A stretch of DNA of 64,000 bases from Cystobasidium ongulense (lineage: Eukaryota > Basidiomycota > Cystobasidiomycetes > Cystobasidiales > Cystobasidiaceae). The notes under the pieces were generated by a model. It was not told where the DNA came from. It did not search any database and saw only the letters and a list, made by a program, of their open reading frames with translations. The stretch spans positions 1,067,307 through 1,131,306 of the forward strand of contig BQUP01000006.1 in NCBI GenBank assembly GCA_022835595.1, in the 5' to 3' direction. The position numbers and the translations under genes are program-made. Positions 8,609 through 34,100 of the stretch are shown here, piece after piece. Within the stretch, counting starts at the first letter, position 1. Each line of letters begins with the position of its first letter.

Positions 8609-9297
8609 GTTGCTGCTGTGGGTTGCGTCGAGTAGAGAGAGAGCAAGCTGTGGCGGAGACCGACGAGGGCTGAGAACGACGAGCGAAACGAGGCGGCCTG
8701 GGCGGAGCGAACAATTGAGATTAGACTGGACGACGATAAGAATGAGTGTGAGCTTGAGATGATCGCGCGCTGCAGTCTGTTCTGGGCTGACCTGCGCCTG
8801 AGATGGTGATGGTGATGGTGGTCGTGACGATGATGGTGATGAAGGGCATGAAAAGCGACGACTGGTGGAAGAATGGAATGGGAACTGAAAAGCAAGCATG
8901 AAAGGTCGGAGTGAGAAGAGAGAGCAAGCAGCGGGTGGAGAATGGACAGCAGCAGAGGCCGCTATCGATGACGCTACATCTGACCACTCAGGAGCTTTTC
9001 GATTCTAAAAAGCTGCTTCCTTGCAAGTCCAGAACGATGGGCCAATGTCTTGACTCTGACGGCTTCCTTTAGCCTGCGCATGGCTTTTCGGCGAAGACGG
9101 GCTTAATTCATTCGGCAGCACTACTGTCTCGCTATGGAGCGCAGCTATCATTCGGTCCGCGCTTGCTTGGTGTCTGTCGGCCTGCTGCGTGCTGCTGGTT
9201 TAGTGCGTGTGAAAGAAAGAAAGAAGCCTGAAGCTTGAGGTCAGCAGAGTCGCGATACCGCTTAGTCTTGCACTAATCACACACGCCGACATCAACC
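8609..9297. promoter_or_regulatory. Divergent upstream region, Ser-rich gene and TAP42
   Basis: A 689-bp gap between two divergently transcribed genes, so it should carry both promoters. It includes a GATGGT-type microsatellite near 8800-8845. Overlapping open frames on both strands are low-complexity and unconvincing. No specific factor site is identified. Confidence 0.5.
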
Positions 9298-10600
9298 ATG
9301 GACGACACTGAACAGCATGAAGATACGACGCTTGCACAGCTGCTCAAGCGCACCCTCGCTCAGTCAGAGGCCTACCTGGCGAATCCACCTCCAGCGACCG
9401 CGTCTGCACCTAGCGATCAGCACAACCATGCATCTACAAGCAACGCTCCCCCGACCCTCCCTTCGCTGCTAGCCAACCTCTCGCTCTGTGCATCTCTAGT
9501 CTCTCATCTCGCCTTGCTGTCCTCCAACGAGACTCTTGCTGAGCTGTCAACCCCAACCCTGCCATGTCTGCTCGTGCCCTATTATACCGGCATGCTCGAC
9601 CTACAATCGCGCACAAAGGACTACAAGTCGCGCATCCAGGTGCTGCAGAGAGCACAAGCGCAGTTACAGATGTATATTGAGAGATGCGACGAGTATGAAG
9701 TAATACCCGAAGAGAGGAGGAGAGAGCTGTCCATCCTTGCGACTAAAGGCTTGCCCTCTGATCCCATGTCAAGGAGGGATGCAAAGATAAGGCAATACAA
9801 GGAAGAAAAGGCTTTGAAGGAGAAGATGGAGGTGAGCTGTCATCTCTTCCAAGTACTTTTCTCGCCTTTCCACTCGATGCTGATTGTACGAGTACTCGTA
9901 GAACATAGAGCAACGCAGACAAGCACGTGCAGGACGACCATCGACAAGCTCCGGAGAGCAAGAAGACGAAGAAGACGAGGAGATCCTGCGTGCTTTATAT
10001 CTAACGCAGCTATCATTATGCTACATGCGAGCATTCAACGAACTCAATAGTATGAAAGGCGAAATAGAACTGTTACAAACCATGCCCAACATGTCTGAAC
10101 TACCATCCCACCACTCCTCATCAGATCCAAGACAGCGTGCGAGAGAAGAAGAAGATTCGCAATGGAAACTAGATAAAGTTTCAGCGAGCTTGACAAGTCC
10201 TGCCACTCATTCCCAATTAGTCGATTCATCAGGGCGTATATTGCGTCCATTTACGATACTTCCCTCCAATTCATCAGTATCGACTGGTAGCAACAACAAT
10301 ATAGATACGCGATTAAGATTACAGAATGAAGTATATGGACCAGGATATAAACTACCTACGATGAGTATAGATGATTATCTAACTTTGGAAAATGAGAGGG
10401 GAAACATCTTGAAAGGTGGAGGACCAAAAAATACTGCCGAAGTAAATCAAGAAAGAGAAGATAAGAAAGCATACGAAGAAGAAGAAGATAATATGCAAGG
10501 TGAATTCAGAAGGGACGAAAAGAGATTAAAAGATTTGGAATCAGATGAATGGAAAGACAGTCATAAGAAAGGTGAAGGAAATAGAATCAACATGGGCTGA
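9298..10600 (+). CDS. TAP42: TAP42/alpha4-family regulator of PP2A-type phosphatases
   Basis: Binds PP2A, PP4 and PP6 catalytic subunits downstream of TOR. Two exons (9298-9831, 9902-10600) give 410 aa, against 366 in budding yeast. The intron is phase 0 and 70 nt. Family marks are SRRDAKIRQYKEEKALKEKM in the helical N-terminal domain, EDEEILRALYLTQLSLCYM directly after an acidic stretch, and the C-terminal P-x-MSIDDYLTLENERG element. The tail is Lys/Glu-rich and ends NRINMG. The ATG is in good context (ACCATGG) and no earlier in-frame ATG is seen. The neighbouring disordered gene is divergent and unrelated. Confidence 0.92.
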
Positions 10601-11341: not shown

Positions 11342-13322
11342 ATGGCGGATCAATGGATGCAGATGCTTGGGGATATGCCGCCCGGTGCTGATGTGTTCGA
11401 TTTCATCGGAGACATGCTCACGGATCAGATGTTCCCTCAGTTTGCAAAGGTGCGCAGAAAGAAGCAGCTTTATACTTCGCCTTTTACCTCAAGACATTCG
11501 AGAGATTACACATGTTTACTGATCTTCTGTCTAATCTACGATATCGATACAGGTCTACTGGATCATCATCTACGTCTGCATCGCTGTGTCTTCTTTGACC
11601 TTCCTCGCCATATTGCTCGCATTCTACATCAAAATACGCAATAAGGGCTTCGCTTGGATGATCGTGCAAGATGGAGCGTGTACTCACATCAGTCCCAAAG
11701 CATGGGTTCCTTTTTTCGTTGGACTGATGGCTCCTCGTACGTACACTTGTCTCACTATCTCTTTCCTACTTGCAAACGGTCGACTGACATGTACATCATT
11801 GCGTGCAGTTCTCATTGGGCAGATAGCTTGGACTTATATGACCCTGACCTACAAGAAGTACAGTGGCTCATTCACAGCCTACTCAGAGATAGTGGGAGCC
11901 ATACCCATCATCTCCTTTGCCGGCCTCACTTTACACGTCTTGACAAACGCACCACCTCTCCGACGATTCCTTATAAGAATAAGCACTGGTTCGAGAGGCG
12001 CCTACACACTGGGATACGATCGTGCTGTCATCTTCATCAATGCCTCCTTGTTCATTTGGTGCGCTTTCGCTGCAGGTATACTTGTCTTGCCTGCTAAAAC
12101 CGCCTACGAGCAAGGCGATACGGCTGGCAAGGTGTACGCAGCGGCAATGGACATCCTCGCCAAGGCCAAACCCACTCAAGATATAGCTGCGCTCGTCAAT
12201 TTGACCCCGATTATGGCACAATTTGGTGAGTTGATGACGCAGCTTCTGGTCGGACGATTACCCGGACAGAAGATTCAGTCTTACGATCTTGTCTCAATGT
12301 ACAGAGTCCATGGAAGCAACTCGGCATCGTGCGAATGACCAGACAGGTGCTGTGTTCAGCCCTTTCTTCATAATCTATCTATTCGGCGCAATCCTTCCAG
12401 CCGTACTCCTGAACATACATATCCGCAATCGTATCAAGGACTATGATCTCGGTTGTGAGTTGAAATATAGTTGTAGATCGCTATTGACATTTGCTAAGAG
12501 AAGTCCTCCGTTCAGTGTCCACAAACCAACCCTCCTTTGGTATGGCAAATTCGCATCTCGGCAATGCGTCAACCGTGCCTGCGGTGCCGACCGTTGATCA
12601 CGAGGAAGAGGACCAGCTCAAGGACGATACTCGACCTATCACCGTTCATCTCCCTCAGAAGCTACCAAAGGACAGACCTTTTGCAAATATCGTGGAAGTA
12701 AAGCATACTACGGCCGTACCTCAACATCTTCAACGTATTATGGACTTGAAGGGTGCCAAACCCGCTGACAAGTCTGCAAGACTAAAGGCAGCCCTCCGAC
12801 GTGATAATCAGGTCCTGTCTGCGTATTGTGTTCTACTATCGGGTAGGTTTATCCCGATTCACGAAACTGTGGAGGTCAAGCATCGTACTGATCAGACTGG
12901 TAACTTCTACCGCTGCAGGCATGGGCTCGCTGGCCTTCTGGCTTTTGACTGGAGGTGAGCGCGCAACATACAGCGCCAGGGGTGGAACTCAGCTGAGACG
13001 AAAAGAACTTACAGCTGCAAACAGAATGAATGCTGGCGCATCAATGCGCATCGCCCTTATGTGGGAAGTCCTCTCCTTTACCATCCCTGCAGCGTTCATG
13101 GCAGCCCTTTTCCTGTACGATGCTGTTCGTAATGAGAGATCAGACGACGAGATCTTTGATTCGGTCGTACCCCAGTCATTCTCTAGGCAAAACAACATTG
13201 CATCTGCTCCGAACATGATTATCCTAAGCCAGAATGTGAGCGTTGTGGAGGAGTATCCAATGGACAGCAAAGCGGAAAGCTCTGAAAACGAGAAAATCAA
13301 CAAACTCTATCGTTATCGTTGA
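11342..13322 (+). CDS. Seven-TM receptor-like protein A1 (array gene 1)
   Basis: First of six tandem paralogues of a family I do not recognise. Seven exons: 11342-11449, 11553-11736, 11809-12225, 12305-12454, 12516-12842, 12919-12954 and 13015-13322, total 509 aa. The N-terminus is short and has no signal peptide, with the motif MPPGADVFDFIGDMLTDQ. Seven hydrophobic segments follow. The loops after TM1, TM3 and TM5 are basic, which predicts N-out/C-in topology as in GPCRs. TM3 is followed by TNAPPLRRFLIRIST. The long TM5-TM6 loop carries QKLPKDRPFANIVEV and ..KAALRRDN. The tail carries IILSQNVSVVEEY. Exon structure matches A2 exactly in number and phase. The fold assignment rests on hydropathy and charge only. 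Confidence 0.85.
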
Positions 13323-14033
13323 GGGTGAGACGGTGTAGATTGCGGCAAGAAAGACGGTTGATGCAAGCGCAGTGCAAAGCAAGCAGCAGCGAATTAGCAA
13401 TACGGTGTATAAGTGGAGGAACAGATAAAACCAAGGTGAATTAACGAAGAGATAAGGAGTAATTGTGATTGAAGGGACAGCCATGAGAAAGGTGAACGAA
13501 ATCAACTTGATTCGGGCTGATACACATTCCCAAACGAAACACGAAATGAAACAGCCACGTCCACTATTTCTTTTGTAATCCCGCCACTCTTATTATTTAG
13601 ATTTCGTGCATACCGTATACTCTCAAGACTTGGCGCCAAAGAAAAATGCTCATCTCCTTCATTCGATTCGTCTTCAAACATCCGTCTGAAACCCATGCCC
13701 ACTGACCGCGCGCTATGGTCTTCGAAATCCAACGGCTTTCATCCTTCTCGATCCAAAGCCAACCAGCTGTTTCACAGGTTCGTGCGGACGGCATCCCGCC
13801 GCTTACTCCGAAGTCTGTCGAACACCAAGCTGCAATGTCCGACCAAGCTTTGGATGAGAGGGTATGTCCGCTCGATTGTCGACTGCATCCGAGCTGGAGT
13901 GCACTTCAGATCGAGCTCATCGTCGCTGCTCTCACTCTCTTCGTTCACTCTGTCCTTCTAATTGTCCTCTTCGCCCAGGTTCGAACTGCTGTTACAGTAC
14001 TGCATACTTCCAGTACCCTAAGAACAGTCGACG
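13323..14033. other. Intergenic between array genes 1 and 2
   Basis: A 711-bp gap. A plus-strand frame at 13715-14131 contains a hydrophobic stretch but overlaps the next gene in another frame and has no paralogous copy. It is more likely 5' UTR of A2, perhaps with a UTR intron ending near 13979. Confidence 0.45.
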
Positions 14034-16045
14034 ATGGCGGACCAGTGGATGCAAATGCTCGAGGCTATCCCACCCGGTGCGGATGTTTTCGACTACATCA
14101 AAAGCTTGCTCACATCGCAGATGTTCCCTGAGTTCGGAAAGGTGCGTTTAAGTCGAAACTACCTTTCTTTGCACAATTGGGAGGCTTCGACGGACGAGTA
14201 TGCTGACCTGCCTGCTGTGTACGCGCCCTATTTCATGCAGGGCTATTGGAGTGTAATCTACTTTCTGGTTGCATTACAATCTCTCTCTCTCCTGGCCATA
14301 TTGCTCGCTTTCTACCTCAAGATACGGAATAAAGGCTTCAGATGGATGATCGTGCAAGACGGGGCTTGTACTCACATCAGCCCTAAAGCTTGGCTTCCCC
14401 TGTGGTGGGGTGTAATGATGGCTCGTGAGTGTACAATCTTATCTTCGATCCTGTTTCTGCATCTTTTTCATATTCAAGAATGGCAAGCTGACAATTTTCA
14501 ACGATGCGAACAGTTCTAATCGGGCAAATAGCGTGGACTCGTATCACTTTTAACAGCCACCACTACACTGGAGCTTTCACAGGCTACTCAGTCGTAGTGG
14601 GGGCCATACCTATCATCTCGTTTGCATGTCTCACTTTACACGTATGGACCAACGCCCCGCCCTTCCGAAGGTTCCTCATACGCCTAAATACTTCAAGAGA
14701 CAAGGTTACACGTGGATTGGAGCGTTCTGTCATACTCATCAACGCTTCTCTATTCCTCTTCTGCGGTTTTGCTGGAGGGCTAATCACTCTGCCGGCTGTA
14801 GAGGCATATCGTCAAGGCAATACGGCGGGAAGGGTGTATGCGCAGGTTATAAAGATCCTTGACGATGCCAAAGTCACTCAGGACATGGCTGCGCTCATGA
14901 GTCTAGCGCCGATAATGGCCCAGTTTGGTGAGTATTATCATGTTAATCTTTCGCTCGGAACTGAATATCGGCTCCTCCATCTTTCTCGCTTTTACAGATT
15001 CTATGGAAGCGTCACGACACCATTCGAATAATCTATCGGGCTACGTATTCAGTCCGTTCTTTATCCTATATTTGTTCGGTGCAATCTTTCCAGCTATACT
15101 TCTCAACATATACATCCGAAATCGCATCAAAGAGTATGATTTAGGCCGTGGGTATAACCGCACTCGGAGATTCACTCGTTACAAGTATTCATGCATCTCT
15201 CATTGTATCAACAGTATCCACTTCACAACCCTCCTTTGTGCTGGCAAGCTCTCTACCGCGGCTTGGCAACGATCCTACTACACCCGCAGAATTACACATT
15301 GGTCAGGAACAGACGGAGCAGCTCAAGGATGCAGCACAACCCATTCCCATTCACCTGCCTCAGCCTCAGAAGCTGCCAAAAGATTTACCAAAAGACAGAC
15401 CCTTCGCAAATATCGTAGAAGTGAGACACACCACAGCCGCGCCGCAGCATCTTCAACGCATCATGGACCTGAAAGGTTCCAAGCCTGCCGATAAATCTGC
15501 AAAACTCAAGGCAGCACTTCTTCGAGATAATCAGGCACTAATCGCGTATTGTGCTCTGCTATTGGGTGAGCTCGTCCGAAGCTGTGCAGTTCCGGCTGGA
15601 TTTTGACCAATGATCTCTGCTGACCCTGCTCATGCATTTGCAGCTATGGGGTCGCTAGCATTTTATCAGTTGTCGGGTTGTGGGTCCACAGCATGACCCC
15701 AAATATCACGGTATAGCTGAAATAACAAACCACACAGATCCCAATCGCATTAGTGCTGGCGAATCATTGCGCATCGCCATGATATGGGAGTACCTAGCCT
15801 CTACTATCCCTGCAAGCTTCATGTCAGCAATCTTTCTGTACGATGCCATCCACAATGATAGATCAGAAGATGAAACTATTGAAGCCGTGGTACCACCAAC
15901 ATTCTCCAGGCAGAAGATTTTGGCATCCGTCCCGAATGTCATCACGCTAAGCCAAAATGTGAGCGTTGTCGAGGAGTACGCAATGGATAGCAAAGCGGAA
16001 CGCGCCGAGAACGAGAAAATGTTTAAAGCGTATCGCTATCGTTGA
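14034..16045 (+). CDS. Seven-TM receptor-like protein A2 (array gene 2)
   Basis: Closest relative of A1, 516 aa. Exons: 14034-14141, 14241-14424, 14514-14927, 14998-15147, 15215-15565, 15644-15679 and 15738-16045. Approximate segments: TM1 40-63, TM2 87-108, TM3 122-144, TM4 168-191, TM5 251-275, TM6 392-412, TM7 427-450, and a 65-residue tail. The TM4-TM5 loop is long (about 60 residues). The TM3 end reads TNAPPFRRFLIRLNT. The TM5-TM6 loop of about 110 residues holds LPKDLPKDRPFANIVEV, in which LPKD occurs twice. The tail holds VITLSQNVSVVEEY. Five of the seven exons have the same length as in A1. The 36-nt exon 6 encodes the end of TM6. Confidence 0.87.
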
Positions 16046-16623
16046 GGATGCGTCGTAGAAGAGTCGGGTGAATGTGGTACTGAACAAATTATTTGCAGCG
16101 AATTATCATCAATTACAGTAGTATTTAACGGAGGCCGATCACTGCGGATTATCTCTTATAAATGGGAACTTATAAAGCTTGGACTTTGTATCTGTTCTGT
16201 CATGTTGTAGGGGTACGTGCCATAGCACAAGTGATCTCGGAAGCGATGGCTTTTTAGCTGTTACCCTTCCACGTTCGTCCTCGCCCTTCCCCTTCGCCTC
16301 CAAATCAGCTGCCATGCGATTGTCAAACTGCGTGCTGGCGATTTATTTGGGAAGAACGGTGCTTCGGTGCACGACCGGCAACCTTCGAACAGGTGAAGGA
16401 CCACTTCCTAATCAAATCTCGTCGCTTCTTATGGCATGTACGGTACCGGGGAAGTCCTTGTAAAGGGCTGGGTCAGGTTCTGCACGGCGCTGCCCATAAC
16501 CGCCGCGTAAAACAGGATGCGCAGAAGAGCGGCTCTTTCGTCTTTTGTCTCCTGTGCCTCTTGTCTTTGCCGTCTCTTGTCTCTTCATTGAACAGATATA
16601 TACCCTCCACGAGCAACTGAAGT
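16046..16623. other. Intergenic between subfamily A and subfamily B
   Basis: A 578-bp gap marking the change from 7-exon to 9-exon gene structure. Short open frames on both strands have no recognisable content. Confidence 0.5.
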
Positions 16624-18679
16624 ATGGACATACCCACCCTCCTCCAGCAGATTCCGCCGGGCGTCGATGTCTTCGACTTCCTAGCTCAGGTGATAGAAGA
16701 TCAGGTGCGCTCAAGTGCGCGTTGGACTGCATCGTCACATGAGCTGACTACTTCACTGGTTACTCTCCAGGTCTACCCCAGCTTGGGCAAGGCTTTTGCT
16801 GTTCAGGTCTATGTGTGAGCACAACCTCCAGCCAGTCCGGGACAAGTCACGTGACTGAGATTCTCAGGCTGACTTCGCAACATGCTGTGCTTTCTCCTCC
16901 TCCAGCGTGCCGATACTCTGCTGTGCCGTAATAGCAATCATCAGTGCCGGACTATCCGTCCAACACCGCAAGGCCAGACTTCGCTTCTTGGTAGAGGACG
17001 GCCCCGCGACACGCCTCAATCCTCGGTTATTCGTTCCCGTGCTATGGCTCATTGGAGGTATATGTACGTCGAAGTCTTGTCTGTGCCTGTTATAACTCCT
17101 TGCCTAATCTAGTCTTTTTCTCTCCATCAGGTATGATCATTCACACGTTCTTGGTGCGCTCCACCATGGATTCGCGCCACTTGACGTATGCCTTGGGAGT
17201 CTATTGGGTTCGTGCGCGTCTCACTCGTAACATGCAGAGACCATCTGAGCTGATACGCAAGCTACGACAGTGGACGATGGCGACCCCTTTGTTGGTTTCC
17301 TATGCAATCATTTCTACATCCGCTATGTGCAGCGCTCCAATTATTCGTAGATGTCTTATGCGCCTGAACGCTGGTCACAGCACTGCTACAACCTTCACGC
17401 CATCCTTCATCGTTCTTCACACGACTATGGTCTTTGTGGTTGTTTTGATTACAGGCTCAACATTCGGTCCAGGTTGTATTCAAGGATCAGCCTTTAAAGG
17501 AGCTCACAAGGGTTATACAGGCATACAGTTATTACTTGCACAAGCTAAAGAGAGCCAGAGTATGGTTCTTCTGGCCTCAGCAGGTACCTGGGTATCCATT
17601 CTGGGTGAGTTGCTGACTATAAGCGCTTTAGGCGAAACCCTCTGACAACCCGCGCTATCTCGCTTTCAGAAAAGGCCACCGATGAAAATCGTCGCGCCAC
17701 ATACATCGGAGGTATTATCTTCAGTATCCACGTCACGTTCTTTGCTCTCTCTGGAATATTTCCTCTACTTTTCCTCAACATTTACATGAAAAAGCGTATC
17801 AATCGCCTTCAAAGAGATCTTAGTGAGGCTTGGTGCTTGAAAAGTGCTTGCATAGGAATTACTGAGACAGTTGTTTTTGCTCGTAGCTGCTTCCTCGCAA
17901 CAGAACTCTGCAAGCTTAGAAGCACAGTCAACATTTTCTGTACACAATCACAAGTTTGCGCACGAAACCTTCGAAAGTTCCAGCAAAGACCTGCCAATCA
18001 ATATACCGCAGATTATACCTCGAGTCGAATTGCCAAAAGATCGCCCATTTGCAAATCTCGCGCCTTCCCCAGCACTACCTCGAACCTACGCGAACATCTT
18101 TAAGTCACACGTAGATGGACAAGAAAAAGCAAGAAGACTGAAAGCGGCACTTCGTCGTGACAACACCTACTTGGCTGCGTATCTTCTCATGCTGTTTTCG
18201 TTAGGTAGCTGCAATTTCTTCCAGGCTGCGAAAGGTGAGCTTGATTTTAGGTACAGCCGGAATTGTGCACAAGCTGATACATCGCCACGCGGCAGGTCCA
18301 TGGGCTTTCGATATCAAGAACCAGTTCCTGATGGCGTACACCTGGGTGAGATACCTTAGACGGACACACCTGCATAGAAGGCCTGCACTGAGTTTCACCT
18401 TGCACCCTTTGTCGTGCGCAGGAAGTATGGGGTTATCTCGTTCCAGCTCTTATGCTGGCGGTTGGTTTTCTCTACGATGGTCTCACGAGCATCAGTACAG
18501 ACGAAGAAGTCGATTCGCCGACTTCAGTGCTATCAGGTCGCATGTTCCAAGCTCCGGCATTGGCCTCTATCCAGTTGTCTCAAACAGTACAGGTTGTAGA
18601 GGAGCATCAACTGGAAGAGAAGGTATTCTCGTCTGAGAAGAGGTCGATGTACGACAGGTTCGGGTCAGACCGTCACTGA
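16624..18679 (+). CDS. Seven-TM receptor-like protein B1 (array gene 3)
   Basis: Subfamily B member, 500 aa in nine exons: 16624-16704, 16771-16814, 16906-17063, 17131-17207, 17271-17604, 17670-17822, 17887-18234, 18296-18345 and 18422-18679. The N-terminal motif is QQIPPGVDVFDFLAQVIEDQ. The first cytoplasmic loop reads VEDGPATRLNPRLFVP. TM3 ends CSAPIIRRCLMRLNAGH. The TM5-TM6 loop holds RVELPKDRPFANLAPS and later KARRLKAALRRDN. TM6 is followed by AAKGPWAFD. The tail has IQLSQTVQVVEEHQLEEK. Compared with subfamily A, introns differ around TM1 and TM6-TM7, with extra introns before TM3 and before TM7. Introns are 61-91 nt. Confidence 0.87.
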
Positions 18680-19442
18680 TAGCTTGTGAGTGGACAGACT
18701 AGTTTTGCAGTATTTCAGCACGTCATGAATATAGTTTGTCAGGTGGCATCTTATGTAGTATTGTAGTATATTATAGACATCAGTCTTTATCAGTTATCTG
18801 GCTTGGACAGGCCGTGCACTATCAATTTCGGCTTCTGCAATGAACAATGCCATGTGCATCCAGGCTTTACCAGTTGCCAGTCTTTCTGCAGTTTTCCCGT
18901 CGCTCGATCTCTCCTCATCAATATTCATATTTCCCGCCTGCCAATCGGACACACTGATTAGCTTAATGACAATTGCGTAAATAGGAATGACCCTCACCAC
19001 TGCCTATTCTTTTTAGGGGTGTACAACAGCGTTGGCTTGCTGGATTGACTACGGTACTGCGTCCGCCTCAGAGCACCATGCACTCTGCCGCTGATCACCT
19101 CAGGCCTACTCTTGCTGCTAGCGCTACGATGAGCTGTGCGGCAGTGCTCGAACAGCGCGACATGCCGTATACTACAAGAGAGGGCTGATTCGGTGGATTA
19201 CCGACAACATCTGGCGCCTAAGTACCACGCTCTTAGACATGGACCACATCCATTGACATCTCGGGGCTATGCTCATCGCTTCGCCTTGGAAGGTAAACGG
19301 AAGCTGACCGACTTACCGAATTTTAAGCCGGGCTCCGAATTCTCACATAGCGGCAGGTCCATTCCAACGTCTCCCAGCTCTTCAACAGCCACATCTCTCG
19401 TGTTTCCTACTCCAGCTGCCGGCCCAGATACCTACCGCAAGA
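18680..19442. other. Intergenic between array genes 3 and 4
   Basis: A 763-bp gap. Part of it, around 19237-19282, is recognisably similar to the region upstream of array gene 5 (shared blocks ending in CATCTCG), which points to a duplicated promoter region. No gene is seen. Confidence 0.5.
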
Positions 19443-21508
19443 ATGGACCTGCCCGCGCTTCTTCAGCAGCTGCCGCCAGGCAAGGACCTTTTCGACTTTC
19501 TGGCTGAGACGGTCAACGAGCAGGTAGGCGGTAACGTAGACATTGCTGAAGCACCTAGAGCTAATCCGAACGCATTGACAGGTCTATCCGGATTTAGGCA
19601 GGGTGTTCTCAGTTCAAGTTTACCTGTGAGCGGCACATACGAGTGATAACGCCAGCGATCATGGCACCCTCCAAGAGCTTGCGCTGATCCCCAATCAAAC
19701 GCTCAACGCTCTCCCCTCGTGCACATTAGAGTAACAACGCTCTGCTGCCTCGTCATAGCGATCATCCTATCTGGACTCTTCATTCGATGGTACAAAGGTC
19801 GCCTGCGCTTTTTCGTTGCAGACGGTCCAGCTACGCGCCTAAGCCCTGCACTCTTCGTACCCCTCCTCTGGCTCGTATCTGGCATCTGTAAGGGCTTGCT
19901 TTCGCTATCAAGCCTCAGACCAAAACCCCGAATAATGACTAACGGTTTCCCTCCTGCTTCAGGCATGGTTATCCATACCTTCTGGTTGCGTTCTTCGATT
20001 CAAAACCGACATCTTACTTTTTCAATAGGAATGTTCTGGGTAAGGTTTTTCGCATCTCACAAAATGAAGTGACTACGGTCTAACAAGCGTCTCTTTTACG
20101 CAGTGGCTCGTTGCATGCGGTGTAACAGCCTCATATGCTGTCATCTCGACTTCCGTCATGTGCAGCGCGCCTATCGTGAGAAGAGGTCTCATGCGCTTGG
20201 ACGCTGGTCATCTTTCCTCCAAGTTATCACCTGCTTTCATCGTCCTGAATTCTGCAACAGTCGCGGTAGCTCTGCTAGCTGTAGGGACGGCGATCGTTCC
20301 GGCCAAACTACAAGGTGAAGCCTTCCAAACGGTCCACCGGGGTTACAGCGGTCTCCAGACTCTTATCGCGCAAGCTAAAGCGACCCAGAATGTGGCAGTC
20401 CTGGCCTCGGCAGGAATGTATGCAGATATCTTAGGTGTGTAACGTGCCGGCCTCTCACTATGCAATCAGATTACTTGACTGATCAATCCTCTGTAGCCGA
20501 AGCGCAGGACAAGACTCGACGAACTATCGTTGTAGGGGGAGCAGTATACTCAAGTCACATTGTTGTATTCTTCTTCTTTGGGCTCATTCCGGCGCTCTTT
20601 CTCAATGTTCACATGCGAAAGAGGATCGATCGTCTTGACAAAGGACTTGGTAAGCTCATTTATCGTGTCTACTATTGGACCCACCGGCTCGCTGACTTCT
20701 GCTTGGCCTCTGTAGATGTTTCTTCTCAGCAATACACAGGAAGTCTGACAAGCGCCTCAATCGTTCCAGTGCAGCTACCATTTAGACGCATGCCATCGTC
20801 ATCTGATGAGAATCTGGAGACTCTAGCGGACGGTGTATCGCAACCTGTTCGACGATCGCGCGTTGAACTTCCCAAGGATCGTCCATTTGCCAATTTAGCC
20901 CCAACTTCTAGTCTACCGCAGACTTATGCTACGATCTTGCGTGCGCGAGTTGATCCGCAAGAGAAGGCCAAAAGACTTAGAGCGGCCCTGCGTCGAGACA
21001 ATATTCAGCTCCTCGCCTACTTTCTGATGCTAGCCTCGATGGGCACTCTAGCTTTCTTCCATGCAGCGAAAGGTGATTGTCATCTTGAATTGAGGCCCTT
21101 CCGCTTTTGCTAATGCCACCTACGCCGGTAGGTCCCTGGCATTTCGACACCAAAAAGCAGTTCGTGGTGGCATACACCTGGGTGAGTGTGCTCACTAATA
21201 CTCTCATTTGGGAGGTCTCGCTGACCATCTTTTCATTATCGCTATGATAGGAAATGTGGAGTTACCTTGCTCCTGCACTCATCCTGGCAGTAACCTTTCT
21301 CTGGGATGCACTATCGACCTCCAGTCCGGGCGACGATGCTGATATGCCAGCTACATCCTTTTCGAGCCGCAACTTCCAAGCTCCAGCCTTAAATTCCGTT
21401 CAGCTTTCGCAAATGGTAGAGGTTGTCGAGGAGCATCAGCTTGAGGAGAAAACATTTGCATCCGAGAAGCGGTCAATGTATGGTAATTTCGGTAGGGAAT
21501 GCCCATGA
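19443..21508 (+). CDS. Seven-TM receptor-like protein B2 (array gene 4)
   Basis: 502 aa in nine exons: 19443-19523, 19582-19625, 19730-19887, 19963-20039, 20104-20434, 20497-20649, 20716-21072, 21132-21181 and 21251-21508. It looks closest to B3: both carry LPPG-x-DLFDFLAETV at the N-terminus and FVADGPATRLxPALFVP in loop 1. The TM3 end is CSAPIVRRGLMRLDAGH. The TM5-TM6 loop contains RVELPKDRPFANLAPT, a TYATILRARVDPQEKAKRLR stretch and AALRRDN. The tail motif is VQLSQMVEVVEEHQLEEK. The exon 3 acceptor (CACATTAG) was set by alignment of reading frame with B1 and B3. Confidence 0.86.
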
Positions 21509-22238
21509 TGAGTGTTCCGGAGAGAATAGTGAGACTCCGCAGTAAATAAATATTATTGTGGATGGTATATCGGATGCAGGGAACTTGATGTATTTACCCA
21601 TGTTTCACCAGGCAGGATTTGAGACTTTGCAGTAATTCAACAATATCGTAAAGAGTTGTTATAACCAGGCAGTATTGTATGTGCAATAAGCAAAGGTTGA
21701 CCGTCTGCCTGGTTCGCCCTCATCCGCCTCCGCGATGCTGCTGTAATCGGAACAGCGCGCAAAGCTCGGCTTTAGGCCAACTGTAATCTTCGCATTACCG
21801 ACGACCAACCCGTCATGTTCCTTTCACTGCGGTTACTACAATTCACCTGCGTGCCCATCCGCTTCATTGCAGAATCCACTTCCTTTCATGCGATGCGGAT
21901 GGTCTTCAAGGCCGCCATGTGCCGCGGACCTGGCTGTGAAGGGCTGCACCGGTGCAACACCGAGGACATCTGGCTATTGATGGGAAGGCCAGTCTTATGG
22001 GACCGCATCCATCACTCATCTCGAAGTCGCTCGGCAGGACTACAGTTCCTGCGAATGGGATGCTGACCGCGACTCAGCAGATGAGTTACCAGTGCCCAGA
22101 TTACGGCGCCTCCAGACTCGCTCTGTCTCTTGTCCTTCTATTCTCTAGATACTTCCTACCTCTTTCCGTTGAATATTGGTTCAGATACCCTGCCGAAGAA
22201 AGGACTTGCCCGCCCTCCTCCAGAAGCTGCCGCCTGGC
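21509..22238. other. Intergenic between array genes 4 and 5, with a 12-bp palindrome
   Basis: A 730-bp gap. It contains the perfect palindrome TGCACCGGTGCA at 21945-21956 and, at 22200-22238, sequence that aligns with the first 13 codons of array gene 4 but lacks its ATG (see array gene 5). Nothing else is recognised. Confidence 0.5.
21945..21956. other. 12-bp perfect palindrome upstream of array gene 5
   Basis: TGCACCGGTGCA is identical to its reverse complement. It lies about 290 bp before the proposed start of 7TM gene B3. A dimeric transcription factor site is possible, but a single occurrence proves nothing. Confidence 0.6.
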
Positions 22239-24208
22239 ATGGACCTCTTCGACTTTCTAGCTGAGACAGTTACGAACCAGGTAGGTGATGAGGCAAGTAC
22301 TATTGAAACAAGTGAGTTGACTGAACAGATATACAGGTCTACCCGGATCTAGGCAGGCCTTTCTCAGTTCAAGTCTACGTGTGAGCAGCATATACGAAGG
22401 AGATATAATCGGCGTCGAGCCCGACGGGCAGCCACGCTGATTCTTGTACTAACAAAATACACTTAACTGCACAGTGTACCAACTCTGTGCTGCCTCTCCA
22501 TAGCAATAATTATAGCTGGACTTCTCATTCGATGGTACAAGGGTCGCCTGCGCTTCTTCGTCGCGGACGGCCCAGCTACTCGACTGAATCCCGCCCTCTT
22601 CGTGCCCATTCTCTGGCTTGTATCGGGCGTCTGTAAGTACATAATCCCCCTTCTATGCTTGGATCCTCCGCCAGAATGTAGCTAAAACCTTTACTACTGC
22701 AGGCATGATTACCCACACGTTTTTGTTGCGGGCTGGACTGGCAAACAATCACTTTACTTATTCGCTTGGTGCGCTCTGGGTATGGGATCTTGTCTTCTGC
22801 TTTCATCAACCGCACTTCTGACAGTCTCGTTGTTCACAGTGGTTCGCTGCATGCGGTATAACAGCCTCCTATGCTGTCATCTCAGCTTCTGTCGTGTGCA
22901 ACGCGCCTATCGTACGAAGATGGCTTATGCGACTGGACGCCGGTCATCGTTCTTCTAGATTTTCTCTGGCTTTTATTGTCCTCAACTCGGCAACAGTGAT
23001 CACAGCTATAGCAGAGATATGCCTTTTGGTCGTACCAGCCAAAATGCAGGGTGAAGCCTTCCAATCTAGCCACCAGGGTTACAGCGGTCTTCAGACGCTC
23101 ATCGCACAAGCTAAGGCTAGCAATAATCTGGCAGCTTTAGCCTCAGCGGGGGTGTATACAGACATTTTGGGTACGTTACCCGTTGGCTCAGCTTCGCTTA
23201 TAAAGCGCCTCATCTGACTCCCCATCTCTAGCCAAAGCCCAAGATGATATCCGACGAATCGCAGTTATAGGGGGCGCAATATACACCGCTCAAGTGGTTG
23301 TCGCGTTTATCATTGGCGTCATTCCGGCGCTGTTTCTCAATGTTCACATGTTAAAGAGAATTGATCGCCTTGACAAGGGACTTGGTAATACCACTCCTTA
23401 TTCGTCCTGGGTAGTTTCAATGTGCTGAAAAATTGCCTTCTATAGATGTCTCTTCTCAACAATTTACAGCAAGTTTGACAGGTCCTTCAATCGTCCCAGT
23501 GCCTTTACCATTCAAAGGCATGCACTTGTCTGCAGATGCAGATTACGAGACTTTGGCAGACGGCATCACGCAGCCCGCTCTACCGCGCGTTGAACTTCCA
23601 AAAGATCGTCCATTTACCAATTTAGCATCGAACTCAAGTCTGCCACAAGCTTACGCTACAATTTTACGAGCGCAACTCGATCCGCAAGAAAAGGCGAAAA
23701 GACTCAGAGCGGCTTTGCGTCGAGACAATATTCAGCTCCTCGCCTACTTCCTGATGCTATCTTCCATGGGCAGCGTTGCTCTATTTATGGCATCAAAAGT
23801 GAGATTCTGTCAGCTTGAGAGTGATGTGCACATGCTTACTTCGATTCGGCAGGGCACGTATGGTCTCATAATGAAGGACCGATGCTTCCTATCATATACC
23901 TGGGTAAATTTCTTTGCTGTGATCTCTTTCCGAGGTGTTTCGCTGACTCCGTGTATATTGATACCATACAGGTGGTATGGAGTTACCTTGCTCCTGCTCT
24001 GTTTCTGGCAGTCGCCTTCCTGATCGATGCGATGCAACAACAATCTACTCCAAGCGACGATACCGATCTACCAGCAGCAGTGAGCCTCTCGGGTCTTAAT
24101 TTTCGAGCACCGCCCCTGGCAACAATCCAGCTATCGCAGACTGTACAAGTCGTGGAAGAGTATGCACTTGAAGAGAAGAAGACGATGCACGAGAACTATC
24201 GGAATTAG
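22239..24208 (+). CDS. Seven-TM receptor-like protein B3 (array gene 5), shifted start
   Basis: 481 aa from the proposed start. Exons: 22239-22280, 22337-22380, 22475-22632, 22703-22779, 22840-23170, 23232-23384, 23446-23798, 23853-23903 and 23972-24208. The position of the start ATG in B2 is AAG here (22200-22202), and no in-frame ATG lies between it and an upstream stop. Codon 14, AAG in B2, is ATG here in good context, so I start there, losing only the first 13 residues. The rest matches the family: CNAPIVRRWLMRLDAGH after TM3, RVELPKDRPFTNLASN in the TM5-TM6 loop, and IQLSQTVQVVEEYALEEK in the tail. The intron after exon 7 has slid by one base at both ends relative to the paralogues (phase 0 instead of 1). 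Confidence 0.82.
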
Positions 24209-24871
24209 GATCCTTGATGATGAGTCGACAAGGCGATGATGGACGCCGTCAAGTAGGATTGCTTTCCCGAAATGCACGAAATGACATATGTATCAGGTGG
24301 ACAGAGTGGTCTGCGGTAATGTACCGAATCATTGATATTGTTCTGGAAAGCGACGTGAGGTTAATCAAATTAGTGTTTAGTCTCCTGACTGTGCATTTTT
24401 ACATCCTAAACCATACTTTGTAATTGGCTTGCATAATATCCCACATAGGCTATAAAGCAATAAAAGATGTCCGTACCCGACGCACAAAGCTGACCGATAC
24501 TACGCAAAGCGGGCTGAAAGACAGCTAAGGGCGACTGCGCTCAAATCCATTCAAATCCATTGAGTCCGACGCGGTCTCGAAGCTTTGTCCTCGTGCGGCA
24601 GCCGACACCTTCCAGCTGGAAGGAGAACGGGCGTAAAGAGCCGTCACGCTGGCGCCCAGGCCATGCCATGCCAACATCTACTCGGATACCACATCGCCGT
24701 CAAGGGTCTTTGAACAACTAAGGATGGTCAAGAATAGTCTGAGGAGTACCAAATGTACTTTGGTTTCTTCTCCTGAAAGCACATCCGTGTTCAACTGCAA
24801 CCATTCATCACTTCTCACAAACGAACGCAAAGTCAATCATCACCTAGACGAACACGAGATAAAGTTAAGCC
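24209..24871. other. Intergenic between array genes 5 and 6
   Basis: A 663-bp gap with a tandem direct repeat of CAAATCCATT near 24543-24562. No gene or RNA is recognised; the downstream part should hold the promoter of array gene 6. Confidence 0.5.
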
Positions 24872-27005
24872 ATGGACAACTTCGCCAGCATCCTTCAGCA
24901 GATTCCACCAGGGGTAGATATTTATGACTTCTTGAGCAAGACTGTAGAAGACCAGGTAAGCTGGCATGCTCCGCCACTCGCAGTCCTCGCTACCTTTGTT
25001 GCCCATATTGAGCTGGATTGTGTGCAGGCCTATCCAGAACTTGGACGAGCATTTTGGGTACAAGCATACGTGTCAGTCTGAACCACAGTCTCGCAGCCTT
25101 GACAATACCCAGCTTCTTGTACTTCTTGGCCGCCACCACTTTGAAGGGAACCGGGCACGTGATATAGTACGAATGAATGATGCTGACGAGATCGGCTTAC
25201 TTGCATAGTGCTGTCGGCCTCTGCTCGCTGGTAATCTTGGCCATTTCCGGCAGTCTTTACGTACGGTGGCGTGCAAAACGATTGAACTTCTTAATAAGCG
25301 ATGGCCCGTTAAGTCGACCTGATCCTCGAACGGTCGTCCCGATACTCTGGCTCATAATGTCCGGCTGTAAGTATTCGTGGTTAGGCACTAGAATATATAT
25401 GCGACGCAGAACGAATTGAACTGACCTCCTTCCCAGCACTCATTGTTGTCACGTTCTGGTTTCGTTCGGCCTTGTCGTCTCGTCGTATGACCTATGGTTT
25501 CGGCGTATATTGGGTAAGGATCGAGGGCGGCGAACGGGTTTGAACGTCCGAATTGCTGATATGTATATGCCATTCAACAGCTTATGATAACCTGCCCACT
25601 GATGTGCTCATATGCCGTGATTTCAACTTCGATGATGTGTACGGCCCCAGGTATTCGCAAAGTCCTTATGCGCCTCAATAATAGTCATAGTGCCAGGCGA
25701 ACGTCACCTGCATTGATCATCGTCAATGGAATCCTGCTCTTCTTGTGCATCCTTGCTATCTGCTCGAGCTACCCGCCAGGTCGTTTATACGGTAAAGCCT
25801 TCGTTGCGCTTACCCAAGGCTACAATGGACTCCAGGAATCGATAGCAAGGGCTCGCGCCGAGCAGGACCTAATGATATTGACGACCGTCACTGAATATGT
25901 GGATCGCTTAGGTGAGTTGCACAAGGCTAAGACAGGTTCGCTCCAGCGAGAGCTGACGCACATTAATATTTTTGAAGCTGCTGGCCAAAACTACGTTCGT
26001 CGCGCTATCTTGATCACCGGCATCATCTACAGCACTTTCATAGTCTTCTTCTTCTTCACGGGCTTGCTTCCTGCGGTCTTTTTAAATATCTATTTGCGCA
26101 AGCGTATTGAGAGTTTGGACAAAGGCTTGTGTAAGTTATGCATGGACTCTCGATAACTTATAGAGAACCACCCACTCACGTTATTCGACGTTGGACAGAC
26201 GCCTCCACGTGGCACCATGCGAACAGTGTTCACTACCCAGATTTCGATAACATGCCGCCGACCTACAAAGATGATGATCCAAATCAAGATGTTGAAATTA
26301 TAGCGGACACCTTCCTGGCTCGGATTTCCCTCAAGGCTCCAATTCAGAAAGACAGCCCTTTTATGAATTTGACTCCGACGTCGATGCTACCCCATGCCTA
26401 TGCTTCCATCTTCAAGGCTAAAGTAGAGCCTCAAGAGAAAGCAAAGAGAATTAAAGCAGCACTAAGACGTGATAACCTTCGCTTGGGAGCGTATTGTCTG
26501 ATGCTTGCATCAATGGGTAGCTTAGCTCTGTTTCAAGCTGCGAAAGGTCAGTCATCCGTTGCGATCTCGACTTTCTCAGTTATTCTAGAAGCTGACCGTT
26601 CACCCATGCTTTCGAATTTCAGGGCCTTATAGATTCCAGCTTAGGAACCAGTACATTCAAGCATATGCATGGGTAAGCCTGTTTTCTCCTTGTTGCATCC
26701 GATATCTGGAAGGCTTGAGCTGACCGCAAAGTTCTACCAACTCAAAGGAGATGTGGAGCTACCTTGCCCCAGCTATCCTTCTAGCCGGTGCAACCTTGTA
26801 TGATGCTTTGAACGGTATGAACGGCGAAGACGATGTAGCCGAAGTACAGCTGTCATCATTTGGATCTAGAAGTTTTGCTGCGCCTCCGCTTTCTTCGATT
26901 CAGCTCTCACAGACTATTGAAGTGGTAGAGGAGCAGGGGCAAGAATTGAAGGAAACGATTTCCGTGTTCTGCATTGACAACAGCCAGCTATGTAAGAAGG
27001 GCTGA
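24872..27005 (+). CDS. Seven-TM receptor-like protein B4 (array gene 6)
   Basis: 500 aa in nine exons: 24872-24955, 25028-25071, 25209-25366, 25437-25513, 25581-25911, 25978-26130, 26199-26546, 26623-26672 and 26748-27005. It looks the most divergent of subfamily B. The N-terminus reads QQIPPGVDIYDFLSKTVEDQ. TM3 is followed by CTAPGIRKVLMRLNNSH. The TM5-TM6 loop motif is changed to QKDSPFMNLTPT, while KVEPQEKAKRIKAALRRDN is kept. The tail keeps IQLSQTIEVVEEQ and then diverges, ending CKKG. Two acceptors (before exons 6 and 9) are AAG rather than CAG/TAG, chosen because they alone keep the frame. Confidence 0.82.
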
Positions 27006-27455: not shown

Positions 27456-30375
27456 TTAACCGAAGCTGGCCAGTGGGCGCTCCTCATCGTGTTCATGGTA
27501 TGTTCCCTTGACGAATGCATCCTGTGAAATAACGAACAGAGTGTCAGATGATATTGTGTCGGCAGCAACGCAGCAAGCCAGCGAAAGTAAGTTGTGAAAT
27601 AAGACGTACTGTGCACTTGGCCATTGTCACCGATGAGCGTGAGATAGGATCCGTTCTGTAAAAGTTCTCGATAGGATTTTGGAAAGCGCCCTTTATGCCT
27701 TGTGATACGGATTTTGGTTTCGAAGCGGCGAGCTGTTTGAATCCGACTAGAGGGTTGCTAGGTCTATCTACGACATCATAAGCGTTGAGAGTAGGTGAAA
27801 CTTCCCACATTCGATCTCTTAATCCAGATAGATCATCATAAGGTAACGTTTCTCCCATTACCTCTGATAAAGCTCGTAGAATCTTCCAATCTTCTCTGGC
27901 TGCTCCTGGCGGTCCTACCGCGGCTCGTGAGACTTGAACTCTGCCTTCAGTATTGACATACGTTGATGATTTTTCAGTGTATGCTGATCCTGGCAAGCAA
28001 ACGTCGGCGTATGAAGCACCAACGTCACCGTGGTGTCCCTGATAGACTACAAATGCGTCTTGAGGAATGGCAGATGATGGTATGTCATCGGCGTTGAGGA
28101 GGTAGACAAACTTAGGAGTGACGGAAGAGGAGGAAGCAGAGGGAGTGAAGCCAACATCGTAGGCAGCAGTATGTGAGATGGCCTTTTGTGACAAAAGAAG
28201 TAGAGCACAAAGTTAGCGATCTCTTCACTCTGTTATCTTGTAGGCGAAGAACAGAGACAAGCCAACTCACCCTTTGGAGTACGTTGAAACCATTCCAATC
28301 GGCATGAACGAATTTATCCTTATTCTTGACTACATAATCCGATAAAGCCGATAATACAGCTGGACCATCAGCATGATCATAGATACCACTTCCAACGATA
28401 ATCATAGGTTTCTTAGCATTCTTGAATTTCTCTGCGAATTCTCCTTTTCCAGAAGACAAGAATTTCTTAACTGCATTCAAATCTTGACCTAGATTTTCAT
28501 ATTCAAAAGTAGAATTGAAATCTTGTCCTATTAAACCAATATCTAATCCTGCATTGAGGTATGCTTTGCGTAAACGAGTATTGAGAATTGCACCTTCGTG
28601 TCTTGGGTTAGTTCCGACCAATAAAAGAGCATCTGCAGTTTCAGCGCCTGGAATGGTAGAGTTGAAAGTATAATTTGATCGAAGGTCGACTCCAGTTGCA
28701 GGTGGTACGGAAGCAGAAGCGACTGGAGTGTCGAGGGTAGTGTTATCGGAGCCTAGTTTATTGATGAGATCCTTCAGAGCGACTAGCGATTCTGTATCCG
28801 CTAATGAACCGGCGATTGCTTTGATTTCGTTCCCTTGAGCGCCTGAAGCTTGTAGTCCCTCTGCTATTCTCTCCAGAGCTTCAGGCCATGAAGCAGGAAC
28901 GAATCTATCACCTTCTCTAATTAAAGGTGTAGTAAGACGCTGATAACGTAGACCATCATGTGCCCATCTTGACTTATCATTCAACCATTCTTCATTAACA
29001 TCGTCATTTAATCTAGGTTGGATTCTCATGACTTGAGTACCTCTAGAGTCGATTCGAATATTTGAGCCAATACCATCTAGAACGTCTATCGATTCCGTTT
29101 TCTTCAATTCCCAAGGACGAGCTTGGAATGCATATGGTTTAGCAGTCAATGCTCCAACAGGGCATAGATCAACTACGTTTCCAGACATTTCGGTATTGAG
29201 TACCTTTTGAACGTATGTACCGATTTGCATTGAGTTTCCACGCCCTGTTGTACCTAGCTCGTCTACTCCTGCGACTTCATTCGCAAATCGTACGCATCGA
29301 GTGCAGTGGATACAGCGTGTCATGACTGTCTTGACAAGTGGACCGAGATCTTTATCTTCTACAGCACGTTTGCCTGTTATTTCGTGGAAACGACCTCTGT
29401 CGGAACCGTATCGCATTGATTGATCTTGGAGATCACATTGGCCACCCTGTTATTGCCACACACGGCGCGAGAGAAAATAATGAGTCAAGCCCGATGCTGG
29501 AACGGTACAAGGACGCACCTGGTCGCAAATGGGACAGTCCAATGGGTGATTCGCGAGTAAGAGTTCCATGACGCCCTCGCGCGCCTTATGCACGAGGGGA
29601 CTATTGGTTTTTACTTTCTGACCAGGCATTGCCGGCATGGCGCTGAAGGAGCAAGCTAATTAGCCAAGTAGTAAAACAAAGATCAAGGAATTGTTTTACC
29701 AAGAAGCCTGTAGTAATAACGATTGGTCGTCAGATGAATGCTCCCATGGTAACTGCCGACGAATGCTCGGCAAGATCAACATTGATCTTGACGCACCTGA
29801 GGTTTTGGAGGTCCGGGAGAGACTTCGACGAGACACATTCTGCAGTTACCTGCGATAGCCAGTCTATCGTGGCTGTAAGGAGAGATGGACGAGTCAGCCA
29901 CAGATTACTTTGCCCAGTACCTGCAAGCAGGAATCTTTCTCCGTCGCATTGCACTTTTGGGCGCTTCGAGGTTGGCTGCTTGCAGTTATGAGCAAGGAAG
30001 GACTCACTAGCAGAAGCGGGGAATGGTAGCGCCAGCTTGTTCGCATGCCTGGTGGGTGTGAATGTGTTAGTCTACTATACCAGGTGGGGTTGCTTCCTAT
30101 GCGCCGTGGGTTGCTCCTGCGAGATGGGTAGCCATGATCAATCAGCTTGTGCTTGCCGGCTTGTCGCTTGAGTGTAGGAAGTGAGCGTACACCTGGATAA
30201 GGGACGAGCCCTGTTCAACCTCTACCTGCTTTCCATCAATCTCGAGCTGGATGAGCTTGCTAGCGGGTCTCGTCGACGAAAAGGCTCTCGTTGCCGACTG
30301 AGGACCAGCGACATGGACCTTTGCGAGCGCGAGGACCCGCCTTCTTGCAGCGAGCATTGCAGCGACGTGGGGCAT
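27456..30375 (-). CDS. NDUFS1: NADH:ubiquinone oxidoreductase 75-kDa subunit (NDUFS1)
   Basis: Iron-sulfur subunit of the complex I N-module, mitochondrial matrix side. Eight exons: 30375-30193, 30048-30008, 29872-29797, 29707-29700, 29642-29519, 29446-28271, 28182-27610 and 27521-27456, giving 748 aa, close to other fungi. The N-terminus is a basic presequence. Cluster-binding segments are [17 protein letters not shown] and QASCAMPAMPG, then [20 protein letters not shown] and [20 protein letters not shown]. The fourth exon is only 8 nt (GCTTCTTG) and its last two bases start the Cys codon of ASCAMP. The last exon encodes [16 protein letters not shown]. The ATG at 30375 is the upstream of two candidates; the second is six codons on. 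Confidence 0.95.
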
Positions 30376-31119: not shown

Positions 31120-34100
31120 ATGACAGTCTCTTCAGCTGGTAAGCAGGCTCGCTCGCTCTCTCTCGCTCTCGTCCCAGCTAGCCGTGGTCCCCATGTTCCT
31201 GGTGGTTCTCAAGCTCGAGGATGACGAGGCCGCAAGCGAGCGACATCAAGCTGACCACTGCCTTCATCTGTGTCTCCAGCGGGCATCCTAGCCCTTCTCT
31301 CCGAAGACGACCCAACCCTCATCCACTACGCCCTGCAACAGCTCAACACCAACCTCGTCAGCTCATTCTGGACCGAAATCAGCGACTATCTGAGCAGCAT
31401 AGAAGTCGTGTACGAGACCACTGATCTCCCCCTCGAGACGCGCCAACTAGCTGCATTACTCGCCTCCAAAGTATACTACCACTTGGATTCCCTAGATGAC
31501 GCTCTTACCTTTGCTCTCTCTGCCGGAGAGCTCTTCAATGTCGAATCGGAACAACCTGATCAACCTCCCAATGGAGACGTTGAATACACCGAAACGATAG
31601 TATCAACGTGCATTGATAGATATGTGGAGAATCGCATCGCTCAGGAAGAAGGAACGGCTCCTCCCACTACTACCTCTTCAACTGGCAAACAAGCTGAAGT
31701 AGTCACTCCCCCTTCACAAGAAGACATGGACAAGATGCAAGCTATAGTAGAGCGCATGTTCACTAGATGCATTCGAGACAACGAGAGCAAGCAAGCAGTC
31801 GGTATTGCACTCGAGGCAAGACGACTGGATGTCATTGAGCGCGTCTTCAACGAGACCAAAGACAGTTCCATTCTCACCTATACTCTTGAAGCTGCAATGA
31901 CGATCGTCATGAAGCTCGATTTCAGGAACAAGGTGAGTTTAAAGCGCTCTACATACATCATATCGTCTCCATCCGTTTTAAGACTAAGCCCTTGTACTTT
32001 ATCAGGTACTCCGCCTGCTGGTCCAGCTATTCTCTACCCTGCCCACTCCCGACCACTTCAGCATGGTTCAATGCTTTGTACACCTCAACGATCCAGTACT
32101 CGCAACCAACCTCCTCGCCGATCTACTATCTCCTTCTTCACTCAAGCGAGATCCAGACAATCTACTCAAAGCATATCAAATCGCATTCGACCTCGTCGAT
32201 ACCGCCTCGCAAGAATTCCTGGGCATCGTAGCTGGCGGCTTAGCTTCTTCTTCTCCTTCATCTTCAATCACGGAATCAACAAGCATTGAAACAGATCAAA
32301 AGCCATCTTCATCTTCGCTCGACTCGAAGTCTTCCGAAATAGACGCTGATATCCTCTCTAAACTTCAAGCTATCTTATCAGGACATGAAACTATTTCATT
32401 ACAATTGGAATTCTTACATTCACATGCAAAGACTGATTTACAAATAGTAACAAAAACAAAAGATACTTTGGAAGCAAGAAATAGTATTAATCATTCTGCA
32501 GTTACTTTTAACAATGCATTTATGAATGCAGGTACTTGTTCAGATAAATTCCTAAGAGACAATTTAGAATGGTTATCTAAAGCTTCCAATTGGTCTAAAT
32601 TTTCAGCTACTGCTGCTTTAGGTGTTATTCATCGTGGTAATTTAGAATATGGCTTTTCACTTTTACAACCTTATTTACCTAATCCAGATGGTGGGTCGGC
32701 TGGTGGTGCTGCTAGCGTTTATTCAGAAGGTGGTGCTCTATATGCTTTGGGTTTAGTACATGCCAATAATGGTGCGGCGGGTGGAAAGGCAAAGGAATCG
32801 CTGAGATTCCTCAGGACCTGCTTGAAAGCTGAAGGTGGAGAAGTCGTTCAACATGGTGCTGCTCTGGGTTTAGGTGTCGCTGCCATGGCAACTGGCAATG
32901 AAGGTGTGTCTTTATTCCTATTTACACTGTCATTGAAGTTACTGATAGGAACTTTCCGTTGGATGAATACAGAAATTTACGATGAACTTCGAGACATTCT
33001 CTTCCTAGATAGTGCAGTAGCAGGTGAAGCAGCAGGTTACGCGATGGGTCTCGTCATGCTGGGTACAGCGAGCACAAAGGCAATTGACGAAATGCTGCAA
33101 TACGCACATGAAACTCAACATGAGAAGATTATACGTGGTCTGGCTGTCGGATTGTCCCTGCTCATGTACGGCAAGCAAGAAGAAGCAGATGGTCTGATTG
33201 ATACGCTCATGGGTGATCAGGTGAGGCATTATTGACCTTGGCCTGTAAACTTTGAGACTTGAGCATCATGCTGATGAGAGACCACGCAAATCTGTTCTCA
33301 GGACCCCCTTCTCCGATATGGTGGTATTCACACCATTGCAATGGCATACGCAGGCACAGGAGCCAACTCTGCCATTCGTCGATTACTTCACGTGGCTGTA
33401 TCAGATGTCAACGATGACGTTCGCAGAGCAGCTGTTACCTCGCTCGGATTCATCCTCTTCCGATCTCCAGCTCAAGTACCTCGAATCGTCCAACTTCTTT
33501 CAGAATCTTACAATCCCCACGTCCGTTATGGTGCTACCATCGCTTTGGGAGTGTCATGCGCTGGAACTGGTCTCCCAGATGCGATTTCAATTCTTGAACC
33601 TCTCACCAAGGATCCTGTCGATTTCGTTCGTCAAGGTGCCTGCGTAGCTTTAGCCATGATTCTCATTCAACAAAATGCAACACTCAATCCTAAAGTTGAT
33701 GAAGCTAGGAAATTGTTTGAAAAGATCATTGCAGATAAACATGAAGATCCAATGGCCAAATTTGGTGCTTCTCTATCGCAGGGTATCATCGACGCTGGTG
33801 GAAGAAATGTTACTATCTCTCTAATGAGTAGGAATGGAAACATGTCTATGCCAGCTGTCGTTGGTCTCGCACTATTCACTCAATTCTGGTACTGGTTCCC
33901 AATGGCACACGCAGCTGTATTAGCATTCAGTCCAACTGCAATCATTGGAGTGAACTCGGAACTCAGATTACCCAAGTTTGAATTTAATTCAAATGTTAAA
34001 CCTTCAATCTTCGCTTATGTTCCTGAAATGAAAGCGCCTGAAAAGGAAACAGTTGAGATGGTCAAAACTGCCGTCCTTTCTACTACCGCTAAAGCTACCG

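Follow-up and report, generated by a model that had tools for sequence, protein, structure and literature searches.

A 2025 census recognises 17 classes of fungal G-protein-coupled receptor (GPCR), based mainly on homology to known receptors, and counts 141,666 further fungal proteins, in 1969 clusters, that have seven transmembrane (TM) segments and were not identified as GPCRs by profile (PMC12842992). Most fungal GPCRs are orphans, according to a 2026 review (PMC13308352). Among described systems, the DUF6534 proteins are an uncharacterised seven-TM family of basidiomycetes, proposed as novel GPCRs, for which the census gives 767 consensus candidates in Agaricomycotina and not in Pucciniomycotina (PMC12842992). 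Rra1 and the Rim21/PalH pH sensors are likewise seven-TM fungal membrane proteins that act in sensing (PMC4393102). Here we describe six tandem genes for seven-TM proteins in Cystobasidium ongulense, which occupy positions 11342-27005 of a 64,000-nucleotide stretch (hereafter the window; G000:C6:1067307-1131306, contig BQUP01000006.1) of a genome of 19.77 Mb in 19 contigs.

We consider it somewhat more likely than not that the array encodes six GPCR-type seven-helix sensors, which arose by old tandem duplication and whose family has so far been found only in Cystobasidium and related fungi. If this is true, the array would offer Pucciniomycotina orphan receptors that can be tested, whose predicted fold is GPCR-like and which carry a new extracellular element, and it would show how much falls outside the 17-class census (PMC12842992). 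Seven-TM families without a name are, however, common, since the same census counts 141,666 such proteins, and this weighs against the importance of the find. Literature searches on Cystobasidium GPCRs, Pucciniomycotina seven-TM GPCRs and receptor arrays, with most subscription journals outside the coverage, showed no report of the family among the entries listed.

Spliced genes in two subfamilies

All six genes (g1-g6, Table 1) lie on the forward strand, with 711, 578, 763, 730 and 663 bp between successive coding regions. Every exon chain, drawn by hand with GT..AG introns and checked by script, forms a continuous reading frame; the original prediction of six same-strand genes closing in frame is thereby confirmed, and the rebuilt proteins have the lengths it gave. 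The genes are not chance frames, because they have homologues in Cystobasidium minutum (Cystobasidiomycetes, Pucciniomycotina), share intron positions and have low ratios of nonsynonymous to synonymous substitution (dN/dS). Identity between g1 and the annotated C. minutum protein P0001 is 55% over 98%. Introns, when counted as shared if identical in phase and no more than two alignment columns apart, coincide at 8 of 8 positions between g3 and g4 and between g4 and g6, and at 6 of 6 between g1 and g2, while four of the six g1 introns are shared with the eight of g4. None of 20,000 random intron placements reached the g1/g4 value. Values of dN/dS are 0.15 for g1/g2 and 0.20 for g4/g5, synonymous sites being saturated in the other 13 pairs. 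Together these results show that the array consists of spliced genes under purifying selection.

Paralogy of the six genes stands as first proposed, with two corrections: there are two subfamilies, and a seventh member elsewhere in the genome. Subfamily A comprises g1 and g2 (68% identical), together with P0001 and P0002 of C. minutum, and subfamily B comprises g3 to g6 (43-70%); identity between the subfamilies is 25-29% within the array and 25-31% when the C. minutum proteins are included. The dispersed seventh member has 25-29% identity to other family members. Three of its four introns are shared with g4 and two with g1, the latter value being reached by 0.26% of the random placements, and one stands at a position absent from the array. 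On a phylogenetic tree it forms a long branch, so that its placement is unsure. Within subfamily B, g4 pairs with g5, and g6 falls outside g3, g4 and g5. Within subfamily A, g1 pairs with g2 and P0001 with P0002, each inside its own species, so either duplication occurred twice or the copies were homogenised.

Protein searches for homologues found P0001 and P0002 of C. minutum, and the fragments P0003 and P0004 on two other contigs, only; these searches rely on shared five-residue words, which remote relatives may escape, and two of them scored the best 8000 candidates. P0001 and P0002 (hypothetical proteins P389DRAFT_165385 and P389DRAFT_9126 of C. minutum MCA 4210; identity to g1 55% and 53%, in each case over 98%) are true homologues, which have no Pfam domain and which belong to subfamily A, where they form a pair separate from g1 and g2. 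P0003 is apparently an unspliced near-copy of P0001, with extra read-through stretches, judged by eye, at g1 introns 2, 3 and 4. With g4 alone as the query no relative, not even P0001, appeared among the best 8000 candidates scored; with 100 conserved residues, and all 593 candidates scored, P0004, P0001 and P0002 were found. The same protein searches recovered no full-length subfamily B protein from C. minutum; the only further subfamily B sequence was the fragment P0004, on another contig, which has 72% identity to g4 across 69% of the query. The array may represent a receptor family peculiar to Cystobasidium-related fungi.

Two further candidates in the C. ongulense genome were rejected as family members on inspection by eye. 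One, at G000:C3:1478696 (E 0.011), lies among frames resembling elongation-factor-type GTPases. The other, at G000:C1:3081675, is a match to the family motif KDRPFA antisense to a kinase-like frame; this pattern has six matches in the genome, five of them in the family, against one for the backward control.

Topology, predicted fold and known receptor classes

Seven hydrophobic segments are present in each array member on the Kyte-Doolittle scale, and in all nine family members on both this and the Wimley-White scale, in agreement with the seven TM segments originally drawn. A count other than seven arises only in the dispersed copy, where the Kyte-Doolittle scale alone gives a doubtful eighth peak in loop 4, a region that is unfavourable by Wimley-White in all nine. 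With the N-terminus placed outside, the inner side has 15-19 basic residues and the opposite side 7-11 (9 of 9 members); basic residues are about twofold commoner on the predicted cytoplasmic side, and no member has an N-in pattern. By this positive-inside count the N-terminus is predicted to be outside and the C-terminus inside.

Loop 4, between TM4 and TM5, is 52 amino acids long in all nine members and is predicted to be an extracellular helical hairpin. Structural models of P0001 and P0002 both contain seven long helices; in P0001 the two helices concerned span residues 162-221 and 224-285, with ten-residue means of the predicted local distance difference test score (pLDDT) of up to 91, and the feature is repeated in P0002. 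The alignment used for folding held 20 well-placed stretches, in which 1252 residues were placed as in the full alignment and 4 were not, and one stretch was one codon shorter. When the models were re-aligned with VIA-align, GPCRs made up 50 of the 50 matches listed in each of two runs, the candidates coming from Foldseek's own pre-selection, so that a family missing from these lists is not thereby ruled out. The models support, without proving, a helix arrangement that resembles that of GPCRs and to which an extracellular TM4-TM5 hairpin is added. Several results limit this support: overall model quality is modest (pLDDT 64-65; predicted template-modelling score 0.49-0.50), the best Foldseek E-value is 0.25, and no GPCR was matched at E <= 0.001. 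A search of BFVD structures gave nothing at 0.001. The expectation that the proteins would have a GPCR fold, and homologues in related fungi only, is borne out with reservations, by the composition of both structural lists and the narrow range of homologues found, but with low model scores and a sequence search blind to very distant relatives.

The weak Foldseek matches include ATP-binding cassette exporters and TTYH2, which would suit a lipid or ion transporter, a scramblase, or a structural membrane protein with seven helices by chance, as would the absence of a receptor signature and the retention of an Asp in TM7 in eight of nine members. We nevertheless regard such a role as quite unlikely: no charged residue inside the TM cores as drawn is invariant across the nine members, the structural re-alignments list only GPCRs, albeit from that pre-selection, and no transporter profile scored better than NrfD, which matched a single member of the six scanned (E 0.012). 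The last is also the best match to any non-receptor profile, so that no strong one emerged, and was treated as chance, as were DUF7311, TMEM62, Papilloma_E5, poxvirus L1, Tim23 and BorA (E 0.13-0.63) and, among PDB entries, PvuII and cytochrome b6f subunit 5 (0.33-0.73).

The earlier statement that the proteins resemble none of several named receptor families agrees with a Pfam-A scan of six family members, which gave chance matches only. No receptor family (STE3, Git3, Dicty_CAR, Fung_rhodopsin, DUF6534 and others) was matched by six members at E <= 1, or by three at E <= 10, with HMMER filters that discard most weak matches. Genome searches with PF00001 and PF20152, run without a working control, found nothing. 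Class A GPCRs are marked by the DRY, CWxP and NPxxY motifs and by a disulphide bond that joins TM3 to extracellular loop (ECL) 2. NPxxY, CWxP and a DRY-type triplet at TM3 are each absent from all nine members, and a conserved TM3-ECL2 cysteine pair was not seen, the only two columns with cysteine in at least five of nine members being in loop 1 and TM6. The family shares with class A and class T (TAS2R) receptors its seven helices, its N-out pattern and possibly, to judge from the structural alignments, a similar arrangement, but differs from them in having a long TM4-TM5 helical hairpin, no detectable sequence similarity, and neither the class A micro-switches nor the conserved disulphide pair. 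It might still belong to a named fungal class, for example the STE3-like or DUF6534 proteins, and have diverged too far for profiles to detect, which would agree with our preferred interpretation on function and not on novelty. The equal number of TM segments, the common phylum, the proposal of DUF6534 as novel Agaricomycotina GPCRs (PMC12842992) and the capacity of fast-evolving receptors to escape profile searches all speak for this; we judge it improbable given the profile results above and the presence of a STE3 locus in the same genome, on a contig other than the array's, where DUF6534 was not found (by a search without a working control).

Conservation of the predicted inner face and proposed function

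Identity between subfamilies A and B is highest on the predicted inner side and in the late TM segments (intracellular loop (ICL) 2, 44%; TM6, 40%; TM7, 36%; C-terminal tail, 31%; ICL1, 30%; ICL3, 29%), whereas the outer loops have the lowest values (ECL3, 9%; ECL1 and ECL2, 19% each). The exceptions to this pattern are the N-terminus (37%) and TM3 and TM4 (20%). ICL3 has an invariant KD.PF core, and the conserved motifs on the predicted cytoplasmic side are AP..R..L.R in ICL2, the KDRPFAN block, AALRRDN before TM6 (most members) and LSQ.V.VVEE in the tail. All nine members have an Asp immediately before TM6, and seven of the nine have a Glu at the start of TM7. Conservation inside and divergence outside would fit sensors with different stimuli and a shared signalling target.

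The conservation of motifs within the disordered TM5-TM6 loop and tail, together with the missing GPCR micro-switches, would also suit seven-TM sensors of the Rim21/PalH or Rra1 type, which act without G proteins and in which the tail and the long TM5-TM6 loop would recruit partners that are arrestin-like or of the endosomal sorting complex required for transport (ESCRT). This is unlikely in our estimation: homologues of Rra1, which is widely conserved in Basidiomycota, span Cryptococcus to Ustilago and Puccinia (PMC4393102), whereas the array family was found in one named genus only, a comparison made from published descriptions.

Under the GPCR-type reading that we favour, the proteins would reside in the plasma membrane, where the divergent outer face (ECL1, hairpin and ECL3) would bind different cues, the helix bundle would rearrange, and the conserved inner face (ICL2, KDRPFAN, AALRRDN and the LSQ.V.VVEE tail) would engage one common cytosolic partner, for which a heterotrimeric G protein would be the simplest candidate. 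More tentatively, and in our view less likely than not, the family could constitute an additional fungal GPCR class, outside the 17 of the census and with its origin in the Cystobasidiomycetes lineage, where the fixed-length, sequence-variable TM4-TM5 hairpin is a ligand-binding or dimerising module and a six-fold sensor array uses one cytoplasmic coupling code (ICL2, KDRPFAN, AALRRDN and LSQxVxVVEE). The initial suggestion of a local receptor expansion is a sensible one that has gained support, though not proof; what has been added to it is the fixed-length hairpin, the conserved cytoplasmic motifs, the two subfamilies and the dispersed seventh copy.

Gene models and genomic setting

Table 1. 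Features of the array family (window positions unless a contig is named)
Feature	Position	Strand	Exons or location	Product or remark
g1, subfamily A	11342-13322	+	7 exons: 11342-11449, 11553-11736, 11809-12225, 12305-12454, 12516-12842, 12919-12954, 13015-13322	509 aa (amino acids), seven TM
g2, subfamily A	14034-16045	+	7 exons: 14034-14141, 14241-14424, 14514-14927, 14998-15147, 15215-15565, 15644-15679, 15738-16045	516 aa
g2, alternative last exon	15717-16045	+		523 aa
g3, subfamily B	16624-18679	+	9 exons: 16624-16704, 16771-16814, 16906-17063, 17131-17207, 17271-17604, 17670-17822, 17887-18234, 18296-18345, 18422-18679	500 aa
g4, subfamily B	19443-21508	+	9 exons: 19443-19523, 19582-19625, 19730-19887, 19963-20039, 20104-20434, 20497-20649, 20716-21072, 21132-21181, 21251-21508	502 aa
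g5, subfamily B	22239-24208	+	9 exons: 22239-22280, 22337-22380, 22475-22632, 22703-22779, 22840-23170, 23232-23384, 23446-23798, 23853-23903, 23972-24208	481 aa from first in-frame ATG
g6, subfamily B	24872-27005	+	9 exons: 24872-24955, 25028-25071, 25209-25366, 25437-25513, 25581-25911, 25978-26130, 26199-26546, 26623-26672, 26748-27005	500 aa
Dispersed seventh member	G000:C1:161722-163489 (L027 497-2264)	-	four introns	491 aa
Loop 4 coding stretch, g4 example	20302-20519	+	split by intron 20435-20496	residues 187-238; hand-computed from exon lengths
KDRPFA motif, g4 example	20874-20890 (G000:C6:1088180-1088196)	+	predicted cytoplasmic TM5-TM6 loop	

The last intron of g2 has two acceptors 21 bp apart, which give introns of 58 or 37 bp; the shorter protein, from the 58-bp intron, is without an insertion relative to the C. 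minutum protein, and the longer form was used in all g2 computations other than the intron check, including identity to g1. The spliced g4 protein recovers its own exons in a whole-genome search. In g5, the frame conserved with g4 (22200-22280) starts 13 codons 5' of the first in-frame ATG and is 85% identical to g4 residues 2-27; the start codon of its siblings is absent at the conserved position, and a stop lies ten codons further upstream. The gene may have a late start or a non-AUG start, or may be decaying.

Guanine-plus-cytosine content across the window is 43-54% in 2-kb blocks, and the neighbours of the array are ordinary housekeeping genes. Of ten flanking frames scanned, seven match TAP42, the complex I large Fe-S subunit, proteasome RPN2 (two frames), M20 peptidase, ubiquitin hydrolase and WDR36/Utp21, these loci lying at 9277-10047, 28115-29449, 31255-34732, 35127-36548, 46235-48421 and 52007-53332; of the remaining three, one had no match, one a weak match to DUF6827 and one a weak match to a mitochondrial carrier. 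Elsewhere in the genome there are about seven G-alpha-like loci, one of them borderline (G000:C4, five places, and C1 and C8; grouped by eye), seemingly many for a yeast-like fungus. Finally, an early-ATG open frame at 13715-14131, in the gap between g1 and g2, encodes a single strongly hydrophobic stretch (IELIVAALTLFVHSVLLIVLFAQ) and enters g2 exon 1 in a different frame; it may encode a small membrane protein or have arisen by chance.

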